29,561 nt of DNA from a virus. Location: positions 1 through 29,561 of IMG/VR virus record IMGVR_UViG_3300027712_000105; one strand, 5' to 3'. Positions 11,229 to 28,576 of the stretch are shown piece after piece. The position numbers and the translations under genes were made by a program. Positions within the stretch are counted from its first letter, which is position 1. The number at the start of each line of letters is the position of its first letter. The notes under the pieces were generated by a model. That model was not told where the DNA came from. It was given only the letters and a program-made list of their open reading frames with translations, and ran no database searches.

Positions 11229-11258
11229 AAAAAATACCCAGCTAGCTGGGTATTTTTT
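11229..11258. terminator. Bidirectional rho-independent terminator
   Basis: A 30-base perfect palindrome: an A-tract, ATACCCAGC, the complementary GCTGGGTAT, then a T-tract. The GC core stem flanked by A and T runs works as an intrinsic terminator in either direction. It follows the stop of the 793-residue protein gene (minus strand) by about 11 bases and separates that unit from the fibre module. Confidence 0.85.
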
Positions 11259-22514: not shown

Positions 22515-22552
22515 TAAGCTCCTGTAAATATATATTATATTACAGGAGCTTA
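22515..22552 (-). promoter_or_regulatory. RBS-sequestering hairpin before the dNMP kinase gene
   Basis: A 13-bp perfect stem (TAAGCTCCTGTAA with TTACAGGAGCTTA, minus strand) has a 12-base AT loop and ends four bases before the start codon. The 3' arm holds the AGGAG ribosome binding site of the kinase. The loop reads TATAATATATAT and so contains a -10-like TATAAT. No T-tract follows, so it is not an intrinsic terminator. Confidence 0.75.
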
Positions 22553-22987: not shown

Positions 22988-23773
22988 TTAACCTTGAATC
23001 CAAGTCAATGGTTGAGAATAGTCTTGATACTTTCTTAAATCATCTAACAGTGCTTCTTGCAATGCTTTGGATTCAGCTTTCATCGCTGTACCATTCAAGG
23101 TAGATCCTCCTCCTGGACCTGCAATACTGCCAAATTTTTCACGGGCTTCACCAATAATGCCCTTCAATGTTGCAAGGGTAAAGTCACCTATCCAAACTCC
23201 AGCACCTGGATCTTGTAATAAAACTTCGACGGGCCGTTGTACATCAGCCCAAACTAATATGCGTTCTCCGGTGCCCTTAAAGTCTCTAACTACTCTAAGT
23301 ACTTTAGTTACTGGGTCAAATGTATAATTAACATAGCCTCCAAACATTCTTGCTGCCAATTCTACATAACCTGCATAAAAATCATATGTTGCCATACCTC
23401 CGGTATAGTTATAATTTAACAAGTAAGTATTAAGAATAGCGCTTGAAAAGGGATCAAATGATGAAGAACTAGGACCTGTTTCGAGTCCCACGGTTCTACG
23501 AAATAATGCCCTTACATTTATAAATTCTTGAGGTAATGTATAAGTATCAACATTTTGAATAACTGTCATTAATGTATACGATTCAGCAGTGGCATTTTGT
23601 GCCCGTTGACGGTATAGTTTAATAGTATAATTTAATGCGGCTTCATAATGTTGAGGATCTAATTCAATGTCTATAATACCATCACCCAATCTTAATCTTA
23701 GGTTAGTGAATAGTGCTTCTTTTAATTCATCTAAATTTAGATTAGTAGGTGTCGATAGTATATTTGCAGTCAT
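22988..23773 (-). CDS. 13: Neck / head completion protein (T4 gp13-like), 261 aa
   Basis: gp13 and gp14 form the T4 neck that joins the filled head to the tail. This protein has the arrangement remembered for gp13-type proteins of T4-like aquatic phages. It begins with LKEALFTNLRLRLGDGIIDI and DPQHYEAALNYTIKLYRQRA, followed by a YTLPQEFINVRALFRR strand-helix. The central part is GGMATYDFYAGYVELAARMF. The signature end is LKGIIGEAREKFGSIAGPGG, then LDDLRKYQDYSQPLTW. T4 gp13 is 309 residues. It lies downstream of MazG on the minus strand, while gp14 and gp15 lie together on the plus strand. A hairpin with an embedded late promoter precedes its ATG. Confidence 0.75.
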   Translation of the reverse strand: MTANILSTPTNLNLDELKEALFTNLRLRLGDGIIDIELDPQHYEAALNYTIKLYRQRAQNATAESYTLMTVIQNVDTYTLPQEFINVRALFRRTVGLETGPSSSSFDPFSSAILNTYLLNYNYTGGMATYDFYAGYVELAARMFGGYVNYTFDPVTKVLRVVRDFKGTGERILVWADVQRPVEVLLQDPGAGVWIGDFTLATLKGIIGEAREKFGSIAGPGGGSTLNGTAMKAESKALQEALLDDLRKYQDYSQPLTWIQG

Positions 23774-23775
23774 TT

Positions 23776-23812
23776 TTGTAATCCTGATATATGTTATTTA
23801 TCAGGATTACAA
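23776..23812 (-). promoter_or_regulatory. RBS-sequestering hairpin with embedded late promoter, before gp13
   Basis: A 14-bp perfect stem (TTGTAATCCTGATA with TATCAGGATTACAA on the minus strand) has a 9-base loop and ends two bases before the ATG. The 3' arm includes the AGGA ribosome binding site. The 5' arm contains the MazG stop codon and most of the late promoter. Only transcripts that start upstream can form the hairpin. Confidence 0.8.
23795..23802 (-). promoter_or_regulatory. T4-type late promoter inside the gp13 hairpin (GATAAATA)
   Basis: GATAAATA on the minus strand (seven of eight) is split between the 5' arm and loop of the hairpin. The predicted start is at about 23788-23790, at the loop/3' arm border. 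The late mRNA would lack the 5' arm and keep AGGA in a free leader of about 17 bases. Confidence 0.7.
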
Positions 23813-24247
23813 GTCATTCTCTTTTCTATTTTCACTATGAGTTACATCAAATACACCGCCGGGATACCTACTCATTAATTTGTCAACATTACCTTCAATT
23901 ACCTTGTTAGGATCAAGTCCAAGTGCTCTACATGTATTAATCCAATACCACATAATATCACCTAATTCACGCTCCATGTGAAATAGATTTTCTTTAGTTA
24001 AAGGTTTACCTTGAAAAAGCATTTTCTTTACTATTTCATTAAATTCACCGCACTCAGAACTAAGTCCTAGCGCCCCTGTAATTAGCAAAGGCATATTAAC
24101 CGTAGGACCATATTCTTCTATAGAATCATCATGATTATCTGATAACTGATCTAGTCTATTAATAAAGTCAGTCAAATAATTACTAGGTCTACTAGTGATT
24201 GCCTCTACAAAATCTTTGTATTTGTTTAAATCAATTTGTTGTGTCAT
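23807..24247 (-). CDS. mazG: MazG-like nucleotide pyrophosphohydrolase, 146 aa
   Basis: All-alpha NTP pyrophosphohydrolases hydrolyse (d)NTPs or related nucleotides to monophosphates; in aquatic phages they are thought to adjust host nucleotide or stringent-response pools. The catalytic ExxE...ExxD motif is present as ECGE (Glu 65 and 68) and ELGD (Glu 94, Asp 97), within LGLSSECGEFNEIVKKMLF and MERELGDIMWYWINTCRALG. The end VDKLMSRYPGGVFD is typical of phage MazG. AAGGAAC precedes the ATG. It is the last gene before gp13 in a transcript starting at the sigma-70 promoter near 26832, and its stop codon lies within the gp13 hairpin. Confidence 0.88.
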   Translation of the reverse strand: MTQQIDLNKYKDFVEAITSRPSNYLTDFINRLDQLSDNHDDSIEEYGPTVNMPLLITGALGLSSECGEFNEIVKKMLFQGKPLTKENLFHMERELGDIMWYWINTCRALGLDPNKVIEGNVDKLMSRYPGGVFDVTHSENRKENDL

Positions 24248-24260
24248 TTTAGTTCCTTAT

Positions 24261-25019
24261 TTATGGGAGTGTTAGCAGGTTATTTTTAGTAATATACTCA
24301 AAAAGGTGCTCTGCATAAAGTTGATGCGGTACCTCGTCATGATGAAAATATTTTGCTTTTGTGTTTTTGTATCCTAAATTAGCATACTTGAAATAAAACG
24401 ATTCAGCATTATTATCAAATTCTAAGAATCGTTTACGGTCGATCTGATCCTTATACCATTTCAACGTATCATGCTCTTGTGTAAACATTTGTAATGTATT
24501 GACAAACAAATACTTGACCTTGTGCATCTTTAAGAAATATTGAAGTTGCAACACATACGTTACACTTAGAATTTCTAGGTACAACTCGTTGTCAGCCATG
24601 AACCTATGATAGCCTTCAATAAAATCTTGTTCTTTAGATCCATTTCCTTTGTAACCCATATTGATTCTAATGTAGTCATCGTGTGTAGGGCTATACCAGT
24701 CAGCATATTTGTCCCATTCTTTATTATACCATGTCTTTTGATAGAATGGTACTTCCATTCTTATGCCGTCAGCCCAACCCACAATCACATATACATCACC
24801 ATCGGTAGTATAATTGTGATTAAACCAATCTAAAACGCTCCTAACTATTCCTCCATTTGAAGATCCTGAGATAGCGATATTCACTGGTTCATATCCTAGC
24901 TTTTGTGCCAATAGATTACCAAAACTATGTTGACGGTTATATGGGCTATCACATGAACCATCAATTTCAGATCCTGCAGGATCACTTCCACCTGCAATTA
25001 ACATTATTTTTTTACTCAT
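24261..25019 (-). CDS. SGNH-hydrolase-like protein, 252 aa
   Basis: The blocks resemble the SGNH/GDSL hydrolase fold. The N-terminal MLIAGGSDPAGSEIDG fits block I with the nucleophile-type Ser region; then NIAISGSSNGGIVRSVLDWF resembles block II; VYVIVGWADGIRMEV takes the place of block III, where Asn is usual (here Ala-Asp); and the C-terminal HHDEVPHQLYAEHLFEY corresponds to block V with the His near Asp. Such enzymes are esterases, lipases or O-acetyl/acyl hydrolases acting on sugars or lipids. Because the block residues differ from the standard, activity is unproven. It overlaps the second SGNH-like gene by 8 bases (ATGAGTAA), so the two are co-translated. Confidence 0.68.
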   Translation of the reverse strand: MSKKIMLIAGGSDPAGSEIDGSCDSPYNRQHSFGNLLAQKLGYEPVNIAISGSSNGGIVRSVLDWFNHNYTTDGDVYVIVGWADGIRMEVPFYQKTWYNKEWDKYADWYSPTHDDYIRINMGYKGNGSKEQDFIEGYHRFMADNELYLEILSVTYVLQLQYFLKMHKVKYLFVNTLQMFTQEHDTLKWYKDQIDRKRFLEFDNNAESFYFKYANLGYKNTKAKYFHHDEVPHQLYAEHLFEYITKNNLLTLP

Positions 25020-25602
25020 TAATTATCCTCAATTTTTCTAGAACAGATTCATATACGATTTTATTTCCAATATCAGTATAGTGATTTACCAAACCTCTAT
25101 GTTTTAGAAATATATCCTTAAAATTTACAAAGTTCTTAAACTTATACAGATTCTTCCAATCAATGTGCGAAATGTGCAATGTCTTTATTGTACAATATTC
25201 CTCAATTTCTTGTAGAAGTAAATTATGCATGTGTTCTGCATATTCAACATCAAAATACTTTTCAAAGTATTCTATAATCGGGTTTAATTCAGGGAAATTG
25301 GGCAAATGTTCTAAAACATCACTATATAACAAACAACTATTTTTATGTAACTTATCCTCATAATGCACGGGGTGTTCATTTACATATAAGCGAAAAGGAC
25401 TGGTGTGTGACACTAGCACTAACTCAAATTTATTTATGTCTATGGACTGTAATTGCTTTAGAATTTTGTATTCGCTACAACCTGCTTGAGAAAGATTAGT
25501 TATTTTATAATCTTTCTCAAGTAAATTGACCCAACCCCTTTCTGTATATTTAATCGTCCAATCAGCAGCAAAACTATCACCACAAATTAAAAGTTTAGTC
25601 AT
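25012..25602 (-). CDS. Second SGNH-hydrolase-like protein, 196 aa
   Basis: KLLICGDSFAADW matches block I of SGNH/GDSL hydrolases (GDS with Ser at residue 10), and SQAGCSEYKI matches block II with its Gly. VLVSHTSPF stands where GxND would be expected and lacks the Asn. NHYTDIGNKIVYESVLEKL near the C-terminus resembles the last block with Asp/His. It shares its fold with the next gene and is probably a distant paralogue or partner. The start is ATG 25602, which shares one base with the preceding stop (TGATG); the in-frame TTG just before is rejected. It sits in the early operon with MazG, so a host-directed role is more likely than a virion role. Confidence 0.68.
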   Translation of the reverse strand: MTKLLICGDSFAADWTIKYTERGWVNLLEKDYKITNLSQAGCSEYKILKQLQSIDINKFELVLVSHTSPFRLYVNEHPVHYEDKLHKNSCLLYSDVLEHLPNFPELNPIIEYFEKYFDVEYAEHMHNLLLQEIEEYCTIKTLHISHIDWKNLYKFKNFVNFKDIFLKHRGLVNHYTDIGNKIVYESVLEKLRIINE

Positions 25603-26801
25603 CAAAATGCTTTTAATATAATCATATGTTCATTAAACCTTCCTGTAGGGGTAACAGACACTGCTTTAATTTCTTTAAAATATTTACGAGCAGCTGGCTT
25701 GCTACCCATAATTTCTTTAATTTGCTCTGCTGGCTTACGCAGTGTTTTACACTCACTTTGAGTAGTATCAAACCCTAATAAAGTATTACCTTTAACAGTA
25801 AAGTATTTACTATATTCATCGGCAACATAATGATGCAGTTTACGCCTTGAAGTATCGTATACCCAAGCTTCACTTGCGCCATGTAATTTAGTTGGATGTA
25901 AACTTGTTAAATTAAGTTTAGCAGCCGCGTCTACAAATTCACGCAAATATTTTAGTTTAGATACTTGCTTTTCAACTGGAACTGCTTTATGCTTGCGAGG
26001 AGCTTTATTAACTTTTTTAACGGTAACATAACTACCGATTTCGCTAAGAACTAATTCAATAAACTTAATAATATTTTTGACTTGTTGTTTACTCAACTGC
26101 ATGTAACCTTGTACAAGTTGGTCATCTTTACCTTCTTGTACCTCGGTAAACTCAATGAGTTTTTTATTCCAAGTTTCAACCATGAAACTAACATGCTGGG
26201 GCAATACATTCTTTTTAGCCAATTCATCAATTGGACGATATGTATGCTTAGTAAGCGCACCTGCACTAATGAAATCATCTAGCAAGCCTTCCAATTCACC
26301 TGCGGCTTCGCTAGCCTTTTCCCGCATGATTTCTTGTACGTTGGGCCTATTTACAACAGGTGCTTCAGACTTGACTGGACCACCTGTACGACTAGCCTCT
26401 TTGACTTCGGGTTTGTAAATGGTATTCAACAACCTACCGATTTCATTCTCCAAGGTCTGTTTTTCATATTCTACTAATACTAGACCACGGAGAGTCATAC
26501 GAGACAACCACCCAATCGTTGGGATGATTTCATTGTCAGCAACACGCCTAATAGTTTTGGCTTCGGTAGTTTTGGTATTCAAGTCTAGGTACTGTGCCAA
26601 AAATTCTTTGGCGTCTTTCTTGTTATAAAATTTATTGTACCAATTGAATGCTCGGGCTAATGCTATCCCGCGATTCTCCTCAGTAGGCTGAATCAGGAAT
26701 GAGGGCTCTTCACCAAAATATTTGGCATCCTCATCTTTGGGGGTAAGACTACGGACCAACCCAGCTTCTTCTACAACTTTTTTGCTAGCTTTCCTAACCA
26801 T
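25602..26801 (-). CDS. Hypothetical early protein, about 399 aa
   Basis: Not recognised. It is a soluble, mostly helical, basic protein. The N-terminal half is charged and helical (ALARAFNWYNKFYNKKDAKE, then LSRMTLRGLVLVEYEKQTLE), and a Pro/Lys-rich linker occurs near residues 140-160 and again near 265-280 (VKKVNKAPRKHKAVPVEKQV). The C-terminal third (SEAWVYDTSRRKLHHYVADE, then NTLLGFDTTQSECKTLRKPA) looks like a compact beta-rich domain that could bind nucleic acid. It is the first gene after a near-consensus host-type promoter, so it is probably made early. The ATG at 26801 has AGGAG five bases upstream; a GTG at 26807 is less likely. Confidence 0.72.
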   Translation of the reverse strand: MVRKASKKVVEEAGLVRSLTPKDEDAKYFGEEPSFLIQPTEENRGIALARAFNWYNKFYNKKDAKEFLAQYLDLNTKTTEAKTIRRVADNEIIPTIGWLSRMTLRGLVLVEYEKQTLENEIGRLLNTIYKPEVKEASRTGGPVKSEAPVVNRPNVQEIMREKASEAAGELEGLLDDFISAGALTKHTYRPIDELAKKNVLPQHVSFMVETWNKKLIEFTEVQEGKDDQLVQGYMQLSKQQVKNIIKFIELVLSEIGSYVTVKKVNKAPRKHKAVPVEKQVSKLKYLREFVDAAAKLNLTSLHPTKLHGASEAWVYDTSRRKLHHYVADEYSKYFTVKGNTLLGFDTTQSECKTLRKPAEQIKEIMGSKPAARKYFKEIKAVSVTPTGRFNEHMIILKAF

Positions 26802-26831
26802 GATCACTCCTATTCAACTATCTATATATCA

Positions 26832-26860
26832 ATGATACACGATCTTCCATTTATTGTCAA
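26832..26860 (-). promoter_or_regulatory. Near-consensus host sigma-70 promoter (early)
   Basis: On the minus strand there is TTGACA (six of six) at 26860-26855, a spacer of 17 bases, and TATCAT (five of six to TATAAT) at 26837-26832. The expected start is near 26825, giving a leader of about 24 bases with AGGAG before the ATG at 26801. This is the only strong host-type promoter seen in the window and would make the operon 25602-23807, and possibly further, early. Confidence 0.85.
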
Positions 26861-26884: not shown

Positions 26885-28576
26885 ATGCCAAAACTTAGCC
26901 TCTACCGTTCCAATAAACAAAATGACTATAGGTTTTTAGATAGAACTATATCGGAAATGTTAACTGTTGGTGGGACCGATTTATACATACATAAATATTT
27001 AGGTCCAACTAATCAAGGCGATAGTGTTGATTATACTCAACCTGATTATTCTACATTAAATCCCACTAATATACAAGATTTATTGTTTTTAGAAAACCGC
27101 GATAGAACATACGATACTAATATATATCGTTTGCGCGGACATTATAATGTGCAAAACTTGGATTTTGATTTAAGTCAATTTGGATTGTTTTTGAATAATG
27201 ACATTATCTTTATTACAGTACATTACAATGACATGATTGAACTTATAGGTAGAAAGTTAATGGTAGGTGATGTATTAGAATTACCGCATTTACTTGATTA
27301 TAATCCATTAAAAGAAACAATACCTGTAGCATTAAAAAGATTTTATCAGATAACTGATTCCAATTATGCTAGTGAGGGATTTTCTGTAACATGGTATCCT
27401 CATTTATGGCGTATTAAATGTGAACCGTTAGTAGATAGTCAAGAATTTAGTCAAATACTTCAAGAGCCTATTAATCAAGATAATTACTTAGGTTTGTGGG
27501 ATAAGGATAAAACTTATCCATCCGGCTATATAATTAGTTATGGCGATAAAAATTATGAATCGATCACTAATGTTCCTGCTGGAATTTATCCACCAAACCC
27601 AACATATTGGAAATTGTCGTCTGAGCAAAACCTTAAAGATATACTTGCTACATACAATAAGAATTTAGACATTAATAATGCTGCATTACAAGAAGCTGCT
27701 AGAATTGTTCCCTTAGCAGGTTATAACCGTAGTAGTTTATATATTTCACCTACATATGGGGAATACGAATCAAACGGTGTATTATCAGGGAAAAATGATC
27801 AGCCCTCTCCACCTACTAATTTGGTTACTAGTTCAAGCGGAGGACCTACTACTGGCACAGTAGCAATGATTCGTAATCCTAATTACAAAATTGCAAACCC
27901 TGTAGTCAAAATATCTAAACAAGCATTGCAAAGTATATGGGATGTAACAGTAGATGCTATAAATGTTTCTACTCAAATTAATTTAGAAGTACTACAATTA
28001 GCACCAAAAAGAATAGGTAATAATTCAGGACAGGTTGAAGGCGATATGATTCTTTCTGTAGAATCTACAGGACCAATAACCGGTCCATATGGCACTTCAG
28101 ACAATACATATGCAACCGGTGATCAAAACCCAGTAGCACCTGGATTTACTGGTACTGTTACTCAACAAATGGATTACCGTGCTGATTGTGATCCTGCATT
28201 TCAATATATTGCTAGATCAAGTCCTAGAACATTTGGTTATAGTGCGGGTTATCTAACAGGTACCGCTGTACCACCAAACGGATATCCAGTTGGAACAGGT
28301 ATATCATTCCCACAAAATCCACAAGTAGGTGATTATTTCTTAAGAATCGATTATCTACCTCAATTACTATATAGATGGAATGGTAAATTATGGATAAGAA
28401 TTTCTGAAAATGTTAGAACCGATACCGGATTTACTGCTGAAGATAGGTCTTTATTATCTGGATTCATCAATGATTCAAATGTAACAAGATTAACTAACGG
28501 TACAGTTATTCCTGAAGCACAACCGCTATCTTCAATACTGCAACCACCACTAGATCCTATTCCACCGATTACATAA
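26885..28576 (+). CDS. 14: Neck protein (T4 gp14-like), about 563 aa
   Basis: Its first 190 residues follow T4 gp14 in order. There is ISEMLTVGGTDLYIHKYL (T4 has a similar Val-Ala-Glu...Tyr segment), DFDLSQFGLFLNNDIIFITV (T4 has a phenylalanine-rich FSNFGMQVQDEVTLSI), and GRKLMVGDVLELPHLLD followed by an F-Y-Q-I...W-Y-P-H-L-W segment, matching [20 protein letters not shown] of T4. T4 gp14 is 256 residues, so the rest (about 370, Gly/Pro/Asn-rich with GYSAGYLTGTAVPPNGYPVG) is an aquatic-phage extension. Neighbouring gp15 confirms the assignment. The start is ATG 26885; an in-frame upstream GTG at 26864 is rejected because the late promoter lies between. Confidence 0.82.
   Translation: MPKLSLYRSNKQNDYRFLDRTISEMLTVGGTDLYIHKYLGPTNQGDSVDYTQPDYSTLNPTNIQDLLFLENRDRTYDTNIYRLRGHYNVQNLDFDLSQFGLFLNNDIIFITVHYNDMIELIGRKLMVGDVLELPHLLDYNPLKETIPVALKRFYQITDSNYASEGFSVTWYPHLWRIKCEPLVDSQEFSQILQEPINQDNYLGLWDKDKTYPSGYIISYGDKNYESITNVPAGIYPPNPTYWKLSSEQNLKDILATYNKNLDINNAALQEAARIVPLAGYNRSSLYISPTYGEYESNGVLSGKNDQPSPPTNLVTSSSGGPTTGTVAMIRNPNYKIANPVVKISKQALQSIWDVTVDAINVSTQINLEVLQLAPKRIGNNSGQVEGDMILSVESTGPITGPYGTSDNTYATGDQNPVAPGFTGTVTQQMDYRADCDPAFQYIARSSPRTFGYSAGYLTGTAVPPNGYPVGTGISFPQNPQVGDYFLRIDYLPQLLYRWNGKLWIRISENVRTDTGFTAEDRSLLSGFINDSNVTRLTNGTVIPEAQPLSSILQPPLDPIPPIT

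Follow-up and report, generated by a model that had tools for sequence, protein, structure and literature searches.

In phage T4, a hairpin that locks translation is known for e, soc, 49 and I-TevI, and its effect on e is 100-fold (available part of PMC3014915). The available part of PMC2988022 lists locks at I-TevI to I-TevIII, segB and mobE and at soc, e, 39, 25 and 26, and the available parts of PMC2988021 and PMC7824862 contain nothing further on such locks. ATAAATA late promoters have been described in CBB and GAP32 (available part of PMC5259590). In a literature survey at the level of titles and abstract openings, with many subscription papers outside it, we recognised no report of such a lock in giant phages or of the RNA element of about 400 nt described below.

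In this study, we analyzed a hairpin at the ribosome-binding site (RBS) of the neck protein gene gp13 in a phage record and its relatives. It is highly probable that this hairpin is a lock set by transcript origin, in which early RNA is silent and late RNA is translated. The device itself is known from T4: the original prediction named e, soc and 49 as precedents, and PMC3014915 and PMC2988022, in their accessible parts, describe them in this way.

The gp13 hairpin and its operon

The window, that is, the whole stretch of DNA analyzed, is a 29.6-kb fragment, an IMG/VR phage record with contractile-tail genes such as those for sheath, tube, neck gp13, MazG and dNMP kinase; the gene names rest on family matches in PHROGs and Pfam. 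The gp13 gene (head-tail adaptor Ad2, phrog_211; 22988..23773) is on the minus strand, as are the MazG nucleotide pyrophosphohydrolase gene (23807..24247), two further operon genes, namely a DUF6071 gene (24261..25019) and one with no family match in PHROGs or Pfam (25012..25605), and phrog_11903 of unknown function (25602..26807), the first gene of the proposed early operon. An early promoter had been predicted at 26832, and a sigma-70-type promoter, TTGACA-17-TATCAT, is found at 26832..26860 on the minus strand (-35 box 26860-26855, -10 box 26837-26832), agreeing with the consensus at 11 of 12 positions, a measure of match and not of activity. The promoter is conserved: of 101 distinct relatives, 57 have a 12/12 match ahead of the first operon gene and 29 an 11/12 match (86/101 together), and random 200-nt segments reached at least 11/12 in 9 of 500 cases. 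By consensus match, gp13 sits downstream of a sigma-70-type promoter on the same strand. Between this promoter and gp13 there is one minus-strand terminator-like site (25711-25684, inside the phrog_11903 gene); the scanned region held three terminator-like sites, against 1.7 expected by shuffling. Elsewhere in the window, a 13-bp stem at 11229-11258, with an A-run before it and a T-run after it, looks like a two-way terminator between two genes.

The RBS-burying hairpin occupies 23776..23812 on the minus strand, with the 5' arm at 23812-23799, the loop at 23798-23790 and the 3' arm at 23789-23776. Its sequence, TTGTAATCCTGATA-AATAACATA-TATCAGGATTACAA, is 37 nt long and folds into a perfect stem of 14 bp capped by a loop of 9 nt (minimum free energy, -17.6 kcal/mol). 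Directly 3' of it follow AA and the gp13 ATG (23773-23771), and the Shine-Dalgarno (SD) sequence AGGA (23782..23785) lies within the 3' arm, 8 nt before the ATG. The perfect stem with AGGA in its 3' arm had been predicted correctly; the extent originally given, 23774-23812, needed adjustment. The T4-type late promoter motif GATAAATA was found where it had been placed, at 23802-23795, straddling the junction of the 5' arm and the loop, and the MazG stop codon (TAA, 23809-23807) is, as had also been said, inside the 5' arm. Only two perfect stems of at least 14 bp with loops of 3-15 nt exist in the window, the other one inside the ORF at 25012-25605, and the chance expectation of such stems is 0.017 per window (one in 60 simulated order-1 Markov windows). 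GATAAATA alone is not unusual in the window, in which NATAAATA occurs 14 times, 9 of them just upstream of a same-strand ORF start if a plus-strand gene is assumed to begin with the ATG at 26885. Another candidate, CATAAATA 10 nt before the MazG ATG (24265), is probably a chance occurrence and is rare there in relatives.

T4 late transcription starts 5 nt after the late motif. This spacing, together with the register across relatives, puts the predicted late start on the minus strand at 23789, where the 3' arm begins. The late motif is thus placed so that the predicted late RNA would lack the 5' arm and keep the 3' arm, as had been anticipated; in folding of this RNA the stem is gone (-0.3). 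The two predicted leaders were folded in the relatives described below, the late leader starting 5 nt after the motif and one leader without GG being dropped. In the relatives, too, the stem pairs the SD with upstream sequence. In the window type the unpaired probability of the SD rises from 0.0003 in the long RNA to 0.55 in the late RNA, and the medians for 90 hairpin-positive leaders are 0.00 and 0.44, respectively. The 27 hairpin-negative leaders gave 0.46 in the long RNA and 0.40 in the late RNA. In these predicted folds the SD is buried in the long leader and freed in the late one, in line with the original prediction.

Conservation and gp13 specificity in relatives

Four protein scans of IMG/VR, with the best 80 matches of each, gave at least 275 gp13 loci, and 276 with the window. 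Two loci without upstream DNA and two that start too near the motif were left out. The remaining 272 loci, several of which share one contig, yielded 118 distinct sequences, which were compared over the stretch that begins 25 nt ahead of the motif and ends with the ATG, identical upstream sequences being counted once. NATAAATA lies 17-25 nt before an ATG in all 118 distinct sequences listed, and GATAAATA does so in 115. The duplex between the two arms is below -8 kcal/mol in 91 of these 118; among the 27 without a strong duplex, 7 are MazG-adjacent.

The arms vary widely, with TTTCC, ATTACC, TCCA or CCCC before GATA, and the 3' arms match them. The mean duplex energy was -11.8 with each locus's own arms versus -7.7 (sd 0.25) with arms swapped between loci, and none of 200 permutations was as low, so that the compensating changes expected in the stem of relatives are present. 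Contiguous stems of at least 8 bp are formed by 74 of 118 own pairs versus 20% of permuted ones, and GG is in the 3' arm of all 74. When the structure was stated on a MAFFT alignment, 135 cells were changed on both sides versus 79.4 in shuffles (0/500), and 73.5% of cells were paired versus 65.6% (0/500); slid registers gave 25-50% paired. Two of five covariation measures were not above shuffles (double-change pairs, 223/500; further pair types, 86/500). RNAalifold predicted no structure on the plain MAFFT hairpin alignment, in which the CCGATA subfamily is out of register by one; we rely here on the arm permutation and the stated-structure counts. The gp13 hairpin is conserved and covaries across very different sequences. 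A near-identity search of GenBank phages with 23000-25500 gave no match, so the conservation rests on IMG/VR contigs and 17 named records.

Those named records were chosen from 58 tblastn hits of gp13, all less than 60% identical, and their folds were judged by eye. The named relatives are large-genome phages, for example 121Q, GAP32, CBB, Munch, PA5oct and Atu_ph07. Two records, XacN1 and RAS14, do not enter the tally, since in both the stretch resembling gp13 is inside a longer annotated gene. An SD-covering hairpin with TAAATA or TATAAATA in the 5' arm or loop was found in 10 of 11 phages with a co-directional upstream gene (Muenster, 121Q, XaC1, GAP32, CBB, Munch, Hallingskeid, XbC2, SD-2_S15 and BF); PA5oct has a co-directional upstream gene, yet no such hairpin was seen in its fold. 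With a divergent upstream gene the count was 0 of 4, none being seen in Atu_ph07, Phosso and Vibrio 2.275 and a weak one (-6.0) in SCTP-2. Since the ten positive phages are mutually related, the association with gene direction does not represent ten independent events. In 121Q, the annotated gp13 start (L282, 1462) is inside the hairpin, and an ATG just 3' of the stem fits better.

The hairpin is specific to gp13 among the late promoters compared. The same loci contain 179 further distinct sites at which NATAAATA precedes an ORF; the duplex is below -8 in 32 of these, versus 91 of 118 at gp13. With gene identities assigned by BLAST to the window's genes, the counts were 4/61 for tube, 9/60 for sheath, 0/12 for a structural gene and 14/24 for the phrog_11903 gene. 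Arm swapping made no difference for the tail tube (84/200), the phrog_11903 gene (150/200) or the structural gene (144/200), and for the sheath, own partners gave a slightly stronger pairing than swapped ones (-6.2 versus -5.7, 1/200). At the phrog_11903 sites NATAAATA overlaps the TTGACA -35 box and own arms are no better than swapped ones, so these sites are not late promoters. The late promoters of the tail-tube, sheath and structural genes are mostly without such a hairpin.

We also scanned a 249-kb relative gene by gene, a simple script having called 239 genes. Stems of at least 8 bp that contain the SD were not enriched, being found in 6 of 239 genes versus 16 of 717 shuffled (about 5 expected). 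Only two stems reached at least 11 bp, both of 13 bp, versus 0.7 expected; they belong to the dNMP kinase and to a gene beside the gp55-like gene, the latter with GATAAATA in the stem. This relative's own gp13 hairpin carries a mismatch and escaped the scan. The gene adjoining the gp55-like gene, with its 13-bp SD-burying hairpin and GATAAATA inside, encodes 253 amino acids (L354:9186-9947, that is, G002:C1:69186-69947, minus strand). Its start looked GIY-YIG-like by eye, and the assignment as a GIY-YIG endonuclease was dropped, there being no Pfam match at E 0.01.

Transcript origin and other readings of the hairpin

From this anatomy we infer a late start site, early read-through, repression and timing as follows. 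Early transcripts made by the host sigma-70 polymerase from 26832 would cross the phrog_11903 gene, two more genes and MazG and run into gp13. On this early RNA the arms would pair and bury AGGA, keeping the neck protein off. Once a late sigma factor like gp55 has taken over, RNA polymerase would start at GATAAATA in the hairpin, near 23789, and the resulting message, with the 3' arm only, would allow translation of gp13. Since the late promoter is within the hairpin, probably only late messages make the neck protein. A gene for a gp55-like sigma factor (CBB_244; phrog_12791, phrog_234) is present in 3 of 10 long relatives, records that may be fragments, and the match there is 50% identical over the C-terminal half.

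The position of the MazG stop codon within the 5' arm in the window suggests another model, also raised in the original prediction, in which ribosomes ending MazG open the hairpin and so tie gp13 synthesis to that of MazG, rather than gp13 being silent on early RNA. In 60 of the 118 distinct sequences listed, MazG and gp13 are within 60 nt of each other, which would suit such coupling. However, the hairpin (below -8) does not depend on MazG. Among sequences free of the RNA element described below, it was found in 53 of 60 whose MazG lies within 60 nt, in 13 of 13 at a distance of 60-350 nt, in 16 of 19 at a greater distance and in 8 of 10 in which no MazG was found. The stem had been expected to be kept while gp13 and MazG remain adjacent; this holds for the 53, and its loss in the other 7 distinct sequences means that the rule has exceptions. 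Where the MazG stop is at least 60 nt off, 29 of 32 sequences without the element retain the hairpin, for example L015 (268 nt, duplex -21.1) and L018 (117 nt, -8.3), although intervening genes are frequent between MazG and gp13 and could couple in MazG's place. Moreover, upstream genes differ among the named phages, the ten with the hairpin having an upstream gene not annotated as MazG, and coupling leaves the late promoter's place inside the stem unexplained. Coupling is thus unneeded, and we regard it as improbable.

The inverted repeat might act instead as a DNA operator over the late promoter rather than as an RNA structure. It is a perfect palindrome over a promoter, and I-TevI autorepresses via an operator at its late promoter (available part of PMC2988022). 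Such an operator is hard to reconcile with arms that differ widely and change on both sides, with the presence of G-U pairs, with a loop of varying length and with the GG of the SD always being in the 3' arm of the 74 contiguous stems; where the upstream gene is divergent, as in four of the named phages, the repeat is also weak or missing. We consider this reading very improbable, and equally so the view that an intrinsic terminator or a site of RNA processing separates MazG from gp13. The presence of a stable stem where an early gene meets a late one would be in keeping with that view, but the scan from the promoter to gp13 found no terminator-like site at the hairpin, and a T-rich tail follows the stem in only 1 of 91 hairpin-positive sequences. 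The lock set by transcript origin is therefore our preferred reading.

Neighbouring elements and comparison with known systems

In 37 loci (22 distinct), a stretch of 382-420 nt without a conserved reading frame lies directly before the gp13 promoter, between MazG and gp13 (for example L062:4568-4960, L033 and L157), and three further loci carry part of it. The fold of its alignment has an energy of -62.9 kcal/mol and 62 pairs, 24 of them with double changes. Rfam gave no gathering-score match to the element in three loci and, for L062, only five weak hits with E of 0.45 or more; no tRNA or tmRNA was found in five loci, and blastn detected no such element in named phages. A pattern scan retrieved 54 viral stretches and 0 genome contigs. 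Downstream of the pattern, gp13 starts in 49 of the 54 (280-331 nt after it in 48 and 605 nt in L305); the remaining five show no gp13 in the available DNA, which stops there. MazG is upstream of the pattern in 50 of 54. The pattern itself lies about 150 nt inside the element, and the 400 nt preceding it showed no NATAAATA. A protein gene ending in SPLPKN upstream of the hairpin-less gp13 was considered, and six-frame reading shows no such gene. The idea that the element is an intrinsic terminator of early RNA found no support in L062, the sole locus scanned.

The hairpin (below -8) is present in 1 of 16 distinct sequences with the element versus 90 of 102 without it, and in 5 of 28 element-bearing ones when the new stretches are included (L305 was dropped, no in-frame ATG being found near its motif). 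Between close relatives the 3' arm can be the same, the 5' arm being missing only from the one that bears the element (L217 versus L222). On the gp13 tree (127 rows, 3 short rows dropped), comparison of element and hairpin gave only three independent pairs on starred branches, mostly opposite as expected but with p = 0.25. The element and the hairpin lie side by side and recombination may carry them together, so that their opposition may reflect linkage.

A second RBS-burying hairpin, of 13 bp, lies at 22515..22552 on the minus strand before the deoxynucleoside monophosphate (dNMP) kinase gene (phrog_139, PF21448; 21875..22510, minus strand). AGGAG is in its 3' arm and TATAAT (22539-22534) in its 5' arm, and the sigma-70-like promoter TTTATT-17-TATAAT is placed so that the RNA would start past the 5' arm, which makes it a possible mirror lock. 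The hairpin is conserved and covaries: in 133 distinct relatives, own pairing was -14.4 versus -10.5 swapped (0/60 permutations). The SD pairs with upstream sequence in 78 of 79 strong cases, and a predicted sigma-70 start, at a loose limit of 8/12 or more, falls between the partner and the SD in 73 of 78 versus a mean of 16 (highest 23) in letter-shuffled controls. A T-rich tail follows 30 of the 78 hairpins, so some may also be terminators; the window-type hairpin has no such tail. Inspection by eye of 8 named relatives revealed no mirror lock: in 7 the hairpin that precedes the kinase is followed by a T-rich tail and resembles an ordinary terminator, and 121Q has no clear hairpin. In L088 and L086, TTGACA-17-TATAGT upstream of the kinase ends six bases before the ATG, which predicts a leaderless message.

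Taken together, these elements allow a tentative generalization: neighbours of opposite timing may be insulated by a promoter of their own inside an RBS hairpin, late at gp13 and sigma-70 at the dNMP kinase, and the RNA of about 400 nt may replace the gp13 lock in some lineages as a second insulation. Each gene would then be translated solely from RNA begun at its own promoter, gp13 being locked on early RNA and the kinase on late RNA. Our results extend a classic timing device of T4 to the gene of a virion protein in a wide range of giant phages, with strong covariation, and make it testable in cultured phages; they suggest that early/late borders inside operons are policed at translation. 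They also provide a sequence signature for late genes adjoining early ones, and point to a possible mirror-image lock and a structured RNA absent from Rfam.

The closest described system is the lock of T4 gene e, shared by soc and 49. As at gp13, the RBS is in the 3' arm and the late promoter over the 5' arm, and the long early RNA is locked while the late RNA is free (available part of PMC3014915); by computation, gp13 would behave alike. In that part of the paper, e-leader structures are described only in close T4 relatives, whereas the present predicted case concerns a virion neck protein in giant phages. The endonuclease locks of T-even phages (I-TevI, I-TevII, I-TevIII, segB and Aeh1 mobE) have the same layout, with late genes on long polycistronic messages (available part of PMC2988022), but gp13 is a structural gene in conserved synteny and is not mobile. 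CBB and GAP32 resemble the present phages in their putative ATAAATA promoters, a late motif of T4 type ahead of structural genes; they also have a sigma factor like gp55 (PMC5259590), the gene for which is present in some long relatives here. The main text of that paper does not use the word hairpin, and at gp13 both phages have CTAAATA inside the stem. As far as its sequence indicates, gp13 fits the read-through lock of e, soc and I-TevI.
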